From the NCBI RefSeq assembly GCF_000353285.1, contig NZ_KB731324.1, forward strand, positions 2,870,577 to 2,934,576: a DNA stretch of 64,000 nucleotides, given 5' to 3'. Position numbers and translations under genes: made by a program. This stretch comes from Leptolyngbya boryana PCC 6306. Its GTDB lineage: Bacteria > Cyanobacteriota > Cyanobacteriia > Leptolyngbyales > Leptolyngbyaceae. Shown here piece after piece: positions 1 to 4,154 of the stretch. Each line of letters opens with the position of its first letter. The stretch's first letter is position 1. Below the pieces are notes generated by a model. It was given only the letters and a program-made list of their open reading frames with translations, made no database searches and was not told the origin of the DNA.

Positions 1-11
1 GCTCATAAGTT

Positions 12-1213: not shown

Positions 1214-1372
1214 TTAGAGCGGCAAGATAGGTCCGGAAGTTGTCGGCGCAGTTGTCGGTGCGGCTGTCGTCGAAATGCCACCGCTTCCAACGACTTGGTG
1301 AGTCAGTCCAGCGATTGTGCCGTGTTCAACGAGCTGCGGAGAGCAATAGGTTTGCTTGTTGTTGTTAGACAT
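1214..1372 (-). CDS. RiPP precursor peptide with lasso-type leader and Thr-rich core
   Basis: This small gene encodes 52 residues. A Shine-Dalgarno AGAGGA lies about 10 nt before the ATG. The leader contains Tyr9, Pro12, Leu14, Gly18 and Thr24, exactly the spacing YxxPxLxxxGxxxxxT that the PqqD-like B1 protein recognises in lasso-peptide leaders. In lasso peptides this Thr sits at position -2, which places the core at residues 26-52. That core starts with Gln rather than Gly and has no Asp or Glu at all, so the lasso isopeptide ring cannot form. Instead it holds nine Ser/Thr residues and a tandem APTT-APTT at 38-45, ending in SGPILPL. Neighbouring genes encode a PqqD protein, a glycosyltransferase and an HprK-like kinase. 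The mature product is unknown. NCBI uses a family name for lasso-leader proteins without a canonical core, and this gene fits it. Confidence 0.8.
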   Translation of the reverse strand: MSNNNKQTYCSPQLVEHGTIAGLTHQVVGSGGISTTAAPTTAPTTSGPILPL

Positions 1373-3114: not shown

Positions 3115-4089
3115 CTAATGAAACGGATAAAGGATTTGCGCCCAATAGGTTCTAACGACGCTGGGAAGCGTGAATTTTTGTGCGATCGGAAATTGTGGAT
3201 CATCAATTCCCGTTCCTGGATAATCCTGAGTATCGTGATGTTGAGTACCAAACAAAAAATCCCAGATGGTCAGGAGAGAGCCATAGTTCTGATTATGTTG
3301 GCGCAGTTCGATCGAGTGATGAACGCGATGATATTGCGGTGTGACAAAAATATGCTTTAGCCAACCCATGTTACAGCGAATTCCGGAATGACAAAAACGC
3401 CCATACCAGTTGTAAAAGAAGATATAGTACATTTGCCCGGGATAGGGAATTGCAAATAGATACCATGGAAGAACCAAGATTGGATATCTCAGTAACATTT
3501 CCCCAGGATGAACCCGCAAAGAGGTGAATAGATTGAGCTGTGCCTGGGAGTGATGAATGACATGAAACCGCCACAGGAATGAATGCTGATGCATCAGAAG
3601 ATGACTCAGCCAGGTAACAAAATCTGCAAAAATTATCGACAAAATAAACCGCAACCAATCGGGTAAAGCCAGCAGTTGTGGTAGATTGATGCCCCAATTT
3701 CCTAGTAGCTTTGTGTAAAGCCAATCTATCCCCATCGTGCAAGGCGCTATCCAACAGAATCGCATCACAAAGCTTCCAAGCAGCCAGATTGAATCTTGCA
3801 ATAGTCCAATCGAAAAGGTTTTCTGCTTTGGCTCTACCGGGAAGAGCCGCTCCAGCAGCAAAATCGCTGCGGTCATTCCATAAAATATCGGATTGAAGAT
3901 GACTTCAGTCATACTGGTCTTGATCGCGGCTTTAAGATTGCTCAACAGCCAAATTGTGATCGGTTTTAGCTGTAGTAGAAAATACAACCCAGTAGCTTTT
4001 TGCCAGTACAAAATACAAACTAACCCTACTAGCACTAGAAGCCCGTGCTTTTGGAGATTGAGCCGAACCAAGCGATCTCGCTTTTGCAT
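3115..4089 (-). CDS. Sterol desaturase / fatty acid hydroxylase family membrane protein
   Basis: The product is about 324 residues from the ATG at 4089 (a TTG at 4104 is possible). It has several hydrophobic segments and the His clusters of the di-iron fatty-acid-hydroxylase family: HLLMH, RFHVIHHS and YHRVHHS. These ligate two irons and use O2 to hydroxylate or desaturate a lipid substrate in the membrane. The substrate cannot be read from sequence. The gene is the first of the minus-strand run into the PqqD, glycosyltransferase and precursor genes, about 100 nt upstream of the PqqD start, so co-transcription is possible. Whether it acts in peptide modification or merely lies nearby is open. 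Confidence 0.75.
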   Translation of the reverse strand: MQKRDRLVRLNLQKHGLLVLVGLVCILYWQKATGLYFLLQLKPITIWLLSNLKAAIKTSMTEVIFNPIFYGMTAAILLLERLFPVEPKQKTFSIGLLQDSIWLLGSFVMRFCWIAPCTMGIDWLYTKLLGNWGINLPQLLALPDWLRFILSIIFADFVTWLSHLLMHQHSFLWRFHVIHHSQAQLNLFTSLRVHPGEMLLRYPILVLPWYLFAIPYPGQMYYIFFYNWYGRFCHSGIRCNMGWLKHIFVTPQYHRVHHSIELRQHNQNYGSLLTIWDFLFGTQHHDTQDYPGTGIDDPQFPIAQKFTLPSVVRTYWAQILYPFH

Positions 4090-4154
4090 AATACGGAGAA
4101 TCAACTACCGAGTAGACAGAATGACAAAGCAATACGGTAGAGTCCCCAAAATCT

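Follow-up and report, generated by a model that had tools for sequence, protein, structure and literature searches.

A cyclase-free locus with a lasso-type leader peptide in Leptolyngbya boryana PCC 6306 and its relatives in Nostocaceae: a putative family of linear RiPPs

Introduction

In lasso peptides, the ring is closed on an Asp or Glu residue at position 7-9 of the core. Some lasso peptides are modified further. HprK-like kinases phosphorylate the C-terminal Ser of paeninodin-type lasso peptides, and in pseudomycoidin the proteins PsmK and PsmN are linked to phosphorylation and hexosylation of a Ser; PsmN is required if one or two hexoses are to be added to the phosphorylated residue, but a host enzyme may also be involved, and whether PsmN itself adds them is presented as unsettled (PMC9266682). 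Iterative glycosylation of a lasso peptide is the subject of work cited in PMC13381572. The nearest described case to the locus presented here is, within the open-access literature, that of the linear polyphosphorylated peptides (LPPs) of Bacillota (Nat Commun, May 2026; PMC13381572). According to that report, the kinase LppK acts on Ser3 in the core of a linear peptide made without a cyclase, phosphorylating this residue but not a Thr in its place, and the deletion of lppN, which encodes an NTP transferase, brought no visible change.

On a larger scale, the discrete lasso RRE model of RRE-Finder is reported to be the best match of almost 8,000 retrieved proteins; a leader peptidase and a cyclase accompany only about 4,000 of these, and others were called possible false positives (PMC7470986). 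A search of the open-access literature yielded no cyclase-free lasso-leader family in cyanobacteria.

The window analysed here is a stretch of 64,000 nucleotides (G000:C1:2870577-2934576) that contains the gene of a small peptide. An earlier note on this DNA had described the peptide as a lasso-type leader fused to a core that cannot form a lasso.

Results

Precursor Peptide

The small gene begins with an ATG codon preceded by a Shine-Dalgarno-like GAGGAA stretch, and its 52-residue product carries Y9, P12, L14, G18 and T24 exactly where the earlier note had placed them. The description of the core also held, as residues 26-52 contain neither Asp nor Glu. A six-frame scan of the whole window gave a single hit to the strict motif Y..P.[LIVMF]...G.{5}T, against 0.08 on average, and 1 at most, in 100 mononucleotide shuffles. 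The NCBIfam model lasso_cyano (NF033528) matched residues 6-31 with an E value of 0.001 and 19 bits (cut-off 33), and the Pfam search of the peptide gave no match.

The peptide is conserved in 13 other genomes, and over the 29 codons that run from the Tyr of the leader to shortly behind the Thr-Thr pair pS is 0.28 and pN 0.047 (435 pairs, 30 copies), so we do not regard it as a chance ORF. Between this copy and the other 29 precursors, pS is 0.72 and pN 0.28. Most precursor start codons of the family follow an AAGGA- or GAGGA-like stretch.

Gene Cluster

The genes of the locus are collected in Table 1. The PqqD-like partner mentioned in the earlier note is present and scores above the Pfam cut-off. 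The same note saw no B2 protease and no lasso cyclase. For the protease this is true only inside the window and is an edge effect: extension of the contig to the left of position 1 (L004, 20 kb) placed the B2 gene and that of the ABC exporter about 4 kb away. The extension revealed no cyclase near the peptide, and a search of the whole genome bore this out, with no macrolactam cyclase (Asn synthetase-like, PF00733) in the cluster. Every gene from NTP_transf_5 through PqqD was assigned.

Table 1. Genes of the precursor cluster and its neighbour in Leptolyngbya boryana PCC 6306. Positions are those of the window unless given on contig C1.
Product	Length	Position	Strand	Remarks
NTP_transf_5 protein		C1:2864951-2866120	(-)	left of the window; cluster member
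B2 leader peptidase		C1:2866237-2866686	(+)	left of the window; NF033537, 83.6 bits against a cut-off of 33
MsbA-like ABC exporter		C1:2866729-2868591	(+)	left of the window; cluster member
GalE-like epimerase		C1:2868604-2869548	(-)	left of the window; cluster member
GT2 glycosyltransferase (only the start in the window)		1-8	(-)	rest to the left, G000:C1:2869551 to about 2870584
HprK-like Ser kinase	353 aa	12-1073	(-)	Walker A GESGAGKST and DD motif; 44% identity to the best Nostocaceae copies
Precursor peptide	52 aa	1214-1372	(-)	leader, residues 1-25, YxxPxLxxxGxxxxxT; core, residues 26-52, QVVGSGGISTTAAPTTAPTTSGPILPL
GT4 glycosyltransferase	395 aa	1466-2653	(-)	matched in 13 of 13 related loci
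PqqD-like discrete RRE (leader-binding chaperone)	112 aa	2704-3042	(-)	Pfam 50.7 bits against a cut-off of 23.4; best PDB match TbiB1
Fatty acid hydroxylase-like protein		3115-4104	(-)	adjoins PqqD on the same strand

The locus has both the lasso hallmark (a YxxPxL...T leader, an RRE of the PqqD/B1 type and a B2 peptidase) and the gene set of the LPPs (RRE, HprK, NTP transferase and MsbA-like ABC protein without a cyclase). Exopolysaccharide-type models were among the best matches of both glycosyltransferases, and PDB searches with the GT4 protein as a single sequence (E up to 1e-8) or a profile (1e-10) found no match. The hydroxylase-like gene, 72 bases upstream of PqqD, was found in none of the 13 related stretches described below, and its product is therefore probably not a core component. 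The extension to the left also contains a protein of 886 aa (L004:11129-13789) that appears TIR-NACHT-like by eye, with a degenerate LDRELDRD-rich repeat near its C-terminus.

Survey and Precursor Family

The B2 domain (PF13471) was sought in 388 genomes of the class, giving 77 matches in 63 genomes, two of them in the genome studied here. The other 75 were fetched as 73 stretches and annotated with profiles started from the proteins of the locus; by these profiles, a cyclase was present in 52 stretches and absent from 21. Three of the latter (L038, L041 and L056) share the order NTP_transf_5, ABC, B2, (epimerase), GT2, HprK, two precursors, GT4 and PqqD, and their precursors align to the window peptide along the leader and the start of the core. 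The remaining 18 are a mixture of short contigs, isolated B2 or PqqD-B2 genes, partial sets and two fuller loci; five of them have no B2 by our own profile, four of these lying below the Pfam cut-off.

The two fuller loci, L036 (5079-10560, genome G012) and L087 (4732-10600, G138), contain lasso-leader ORFs, HprK, NTP_transf_5, ABC, B2 and PqqD with no cyclase nearby, and their genomes have NF033535 matches of at most 100-108 bits. These two loci make clear that the family of the window peptide is not alone in lacking a local cyclase. As Asp is kept in their cores (at position 9 in both peptides of L087 and at position 10 in L036), they are not counted as members.

A search of 97 relatives with the single peptide found only its own copy and four weak matches, so alignment-based searches were needed. 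A seven-row alignment matched 41 of 217 Nostocaceae genomes at E up to 0.01. The strong matches, 30 in 13 genomes, had E values below 1e-22. The 28 weak genomes (E 8.9e-5 or worse) were taken as carrying ordinary lasso leaders, and the three that were fetched (L135-L137) all have a cyclase. A 19-row alignment run class-wide against the 388 genomes matched strongly only the genome studied here, G148, G292 and G335, and weakly seven more, all examined except G258. One weakly matched genome, G317 (L151), was considered a distant member by its leader and then rejected, its locus being of the lasso type with a cyclase and an acidic core. A genome-contig scan with the kinase of the locus found no relative, and one with the precursor alignment A2 gave ten named loci, from Nostoc (including N. 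linckia z4, N. paludosum FACHB-159 and N. calcicola FACHB-3891), Cylindrospermum, Desmonostoc, the latter two likewise Nostocaceae, and one uncultured cyanobacterium.

The tabulated set consists of 14 loci (13 and our own) with 30 intact precursors (29 and our own); a second match in G494, with an inner stop, and a partial third match in G487 were left out. The family is thus kept in 14 genomes of five genera, with one to four precursors per locus and variable tails. Among the genomes searched from the strain's own genus and family, no other one matched, which makes the copy of the strain an outlier.

Core Register and Ring Acceptor

The family motif is YxxPxLxxHGxIxGLT followed by [QA]V[GV]xSxG, and the core start shared by the 30 precursors of the 14 loci reads [QA]V[GV]xS[GR]G[FI]xTT. 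V, S, G, T and T stand at core positions 2, 5, 7, 10 and 11 in all 30. With the leader Thr set at -2, position 9 is Gly in 20, Ser in 7, Ala in 2 and Asp in one; in the window peptide, whose core starts with QVVGSGGISTT, it is Ser. The one precursor with Asp, L131:10480-10638, has three sister copies with Gly.

As comparators we used ORFs picked out by a regular expression; 41 of the 56 cyclase loci yielded such ORFs, and the sample misses unusual precursors such as that of L006. An Asp or Glu at core 7-9 was found in 1 of 30 family precursors against 47 of 57 from the cyclase loci, 34 of which have Asp at position 9; counted per locus, the ratio is 1 of 14 against 36 of 41. Fisher's p values of 1.6e-13 per peptide and 7e-8 per locus are guides only, as the sequences are related, and 10 of the 57 lasso precursors also lack an acidic residue at 7-9 in the same register. 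Cores with no acidic residue at all make up 19 of 30 in the family against none of 57. Moreover, Thr accounts for 21.7% of core residues against 8.1% in lasso cores, and a C-terminal Ser ends 0 of 30 family cores against 14 of 57. Cys is absent from the family cores, and Lys and Arg total 7 across the 30 peptides.

The lasso cores AVGSLKFSDTI (L074) and QVGMTFTTDSF (L070) line up with the family core QVGGSGGFGTT. Because the core starts align in the same register, the family looks like a lasso precursor in which the acceptor was replaced, the lasso form presumably having come first. The earlier note had named a cyclase together with an acidic core in close homologues as evidence against its reading. 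Both were sought: none of the 13 related stretches has a cyclase, and the acidic residue at 7-9 is absent from 29 of 30 precursors.

Cyclases Elsewhere in the Genomes

The genome of the strain has four PF00733 matches, all outside the cluster, the nearest about 359 kb from the peptide. Its sole lasso-type cyclase (C1 about 2.324 Mb) lies about 546 kb from the peptide and belongs to a second cluster, L006, together with B2, PqqD, HprK and ABC genes. In this second cluster (L006:5387-14388; G000:C1 about 2.321-2.330 Mb), NTP_transf_5 and B2 are fused. The leader of its precursor, L006:10260-10421, lacks the usual Pro (YLSMQVSQLG), and since the first core Asp lies beyond position 9, a ring is not obvious. 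At a third PqqD locus (L007:5709-8323; G000:C1 about 3.747-3.749 Mb), an NTP_transf_5 gene and an HprK gene of highly divergent sequence lie close to two GT2 genes; the L007 stretch showed neither a B2 nor a cyclase, and none of its ORFs was convincing as a lasso leader.

For cyclases acting in trans, NF033535 was searched against the 14 genomes that carry the precursor family. One protein exceeded the cut-off, in G292, inside a separate lasso cluster (L050). Eleven further genomes, including our own, gave matches of 194 to 243 bits, and a cyclase-like protein of more than 190 bits was present somewhere in 12 of the 14. In G478 and G495, both with a completeness rating of 99%, no match in the genome exceeds 121 bits, a level common in most other genomes and presumably that of AsnB. 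In the class searched, the sole B2 match of each of G047, G050 and G057 is separated from the cyclase-like proteins, which score 306-350 bits. Split lasso systems therefore seem to exist in these cyanobacteria, and the lack of a neighbouring cyclase is not proof by itself. As far as the genomes are complete, a trans-acting cyclase is excluded in 2 of the 14; it is unlikely in all of them because the ring acceptor is missing.

Co-Inherited Genes

The enzymes of the cluster are in part inherited together with the precursor. Among the 13 related stretches, of which 11 hold the whole cluster and two (L128 and L132) are cut by contig ends, GT4 occurs in 13, PqqD, HprK and GT2 in 12, B2, ABC and NTP_transf_5 in 11, and the epimerase in 9; in the 11 complete loci, the epimerase is full-length in eight and a fragment in one (L056).

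The identities differ between genes. Our GT4 is 44-46% identical to related copies (7 of 13 aligned), with a best cyclase-locus match of 25% over 155 aa. The epimerase reaches 63-64% against 27-30% in cyclase loci, HprK 44% against 36%, and PqqD 59% against 40% in cyclase loci and 47% in other cyclase-free loci. The values are close for ABC (59% to related, 61% to lasso-locus copies) and NTP_transf_5 (33% and 31%). The GT2 is only 29% identical to those of Nostocaceae, and B2 is 47-48% identical to other B2s and 30% to those of related loci.

In the trees, all of them quick ones from short alignments with many open forks and some long branches, the own and related copies form one clade for HprK (SH-aLRT 93) and one for PqqD (SH-aLRT 96). 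The B2s form no single clade, that of the window locus grouping with other B2s. The nearest HprK outside the family comes from the cyclase loci L053 and L055. The GT2 and B2 results indicate that the locus is a mosaic. From identities and clades, the core module consists of the peptide, PqqD, the kinase, GT4 and usually the epimerase, while B2 is kept with a different descent. NTP_transf_5, ABC and B2 also occur in lasso loci and are thus no mark of a new chemistry.

The Cys and His of B2 are conserved in our locus and all 11 complete related ones, and so are the P-loop and DD motif of the kinase. Beyond the genes named, the 11 complete clusters contain ORFs of at least 110 aa only for further sugar enzymes, a second GT4 in three (L056, L131 and L134; one of the three checked by Pfam) and a Core-2/I-branching enzyme in one. 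The latter (PF02485) lies at L131:5267-6178. Near the family in the PqqD tree are L029, L034, L067 and L068, in which PqqD and B2 are paired but neither a cyclase nor HprK nor a visible precursor adjoins them; as cyclase-like proteins of 253-350 bits occur elsewhere in their genomes, these pairs may belong to split lasso systems.

Discussion

We consider it probable that the window peptide gives rise, without a cyclase, to a linear RiPP of a pathway derived from cyanobacterial lasso biosynthesis, in which the core is phosphorylated, glycosylated, trimmed by B2 and exported. From the sequences we infer the cleavage site, phosphorylation, glycosylation, export and each assigned residue. PqqD would bind the YxxPxL leader, and B2 would cleave after residue 25, which sets T at -2. 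The core start retains the lasso spacing, and with Ser at position 9 (Gly, Ser or Ala in the family) instead of the ring-closing Asp that many cyanobacterial lasso peptides have there, no isopeptide ring would form. The HprK-like kinase would phosphorylate core Ser5 (S30), its likeliest target because this Ser is invariant in the family, in which a C-terminal Ser is never found. Sugar may then be put on Ser5 or on the Thr-rich tail by the NTP_transf_5 protein, GT4 and GT2, aided by the epimerase, and the ABC transporter would export the finished peptide. Thr10-11 and the Thr-rich tail are candidate O-glycosylation sites.

A more specific reading is offered tentatively, as one that may well prove wrong: lasso machinery without the cyclase and the position-9 acceptor, and with a private GT4 and epimerase (in some loci also branching or extra glycosyltransferases), may make exported linear phospho-glycopeptides in which the invariant Ser5/Thr-Thr block carries a sugar phosphate or a longer glycan, as a RiPP class parallel to and distinct from the LPPs of Bacillota.

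The lasso-type leader seems to act in a pathway that forms no lasso ring. The proposal of the earlier note that it serves another chemistry gains support from the 13 stretches without a cyclase and the 29 of 30 cores without an acceptor. Its further claim, that of a non-lasso RiPP class sharing the lasso leader, has a precedent in the LPPs described in PMC13381572.

As far as described there (PMC13381572), the LPPs and the cyanobacterial family have in common a YxxPxx lasso-like leader, a discrete RRE, an HprK-like kinase, an NTP transferase, an MsbA-like exporter and the lack of a macrolactam cyclase, as well as few precursors per locus, variable C termini and a glycosyltransferase-rich setting. 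The peptidase differs, being SipW-like SpI in LPPs and lasso B2 here; no candidate for an archaeal-type SpI (SipW-like) was found among ORFs of at least 110 aa inside the 11 complete clusters or our own. The LPP motif is YxxPxVLxHQxIxFETxxS with the phospho-Ser at core 3, whereas the family combines its own leader motif with Ser at core 5 and TT at 10-11, and none of its precursors has Ser at +3 after the leader Thr. Moreover, GT4 is present in 14 of 14 family loci, an epimerase is usual, and the hosts are Cyanobacteria and not Bacillota. Given the differences in peptidase, leader motif, site spacing, conserved GT4 and host phylum, we regard the family as a parallel variant and not a member of the LPPs as reported.

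With cyanobacterial lasso peptides (lasso_cyano NF033528, with a paeninodin-like gene set), the family shares leader, PqqD, B2, HprK, NTP_transf_5, ABC and core register. It differs from them in the missing cyclase, the replaced position-9 acceptor, the Thr-rich tail, the lack of a C-terminal Ser, and a GT4 and epimerase without a close match in cyclase loci. The kinase and nucleotidyltransferase-like protein accompanying a lasso-type precursor recall pseudomycoidin, in which PsmN is tied to Ser phosphate and hexose; pseudomycoidin, however, is a true lasso modified at its C-terminal Ser (PMC9266682).

The locus looks like a traceable conversion of one RiPP class into another, as leader, recognition protein, peptidase and core register are the same, and the ring enzyme and acceptor are gone. 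Cyclase-free lasso-leader loci are now seen outside Bacillota, and families of this kind may explain some of the RRE-Finder proteins without a peptidase and cyclase at hand (PMC7470986). The named Nostoc strains are offered for probing the kinase, the nucleotidyltransferase-like protein and the glycosyltransferases.

Other explanations were weighed against this pathway. It is very unlikely that the product is an ordinary lasso peptide closed in trans by a cyclase of another cluster, such as L006 in the genome studied here. That cluster has B2, PqqD, lasso-type cyclase, HprK and ABC of its own, cyclase-like proteins above 190 bits occur in 12 of 14 genomes, B2 and cyclase-like genes stand apart in G047, G050 and G057, and one precursor has Asp at core 9; yet the acceptor is missing in the other 29, G478 and G495 offer no candidate above the 121-bit level, and the 11 complete loci keep B2, PqqD, kinase and exporter while no stretch has a cyclase. 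A lasso cluster in decay, having lost its cyclase and with the remainder drifting, is highly improbable. The missing cyclase and acceptor would fit it, and so would the epimerase fragment of L056, the inner stop in G494 and the partial match in G487, but retention in 14 genomes of five genera, five invariant core residues beside variable tails in one to four precursors per locus, a pN far below pS, and intact B2 and kinase motifs argue against drift.

The two remaining alternatives concern the product. The VGGSGGFxTT block is rigid, and its uniformity seems to exceed what a region serving only for glycosylation would require, which could point to closure of the core by other chemistry (e.g., a lactone or backbone cross-link) through an unrecognised enzyme, with glycosylation as a side branch. 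We hold this to be quite unlikely, as the leftover ORFs of at least 110 aa inside the 11 complete clusters encode sugar enzymes only and the cores offer no Cys and few Lys or Arg. Unlikely, too, is that the peptide is a protein-like primer of an exported glycan, its phosphorylated and sugar-bearing core being elongated and delivered to the envelope instead of being set free as a small natural product. This would agree with the exopolysaccharide-type matches of the two glycosyltransferases, the epimerase and the MsbA-like exporter, with the second GT4 in 3 and the branching glycosyltransferase in 1 of 11 complete related loci, and with the report that the clusters for LPPs and paeninodin are often situated within capsule loci (PMC13381572). 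The linear, exported phospho-glycopeptide remains our preferred reading.

As to the surroundings of the family, six loci are flanked by P450, FAD-NAD(P)-binding and fasciclin genes, named after the copies in L125.
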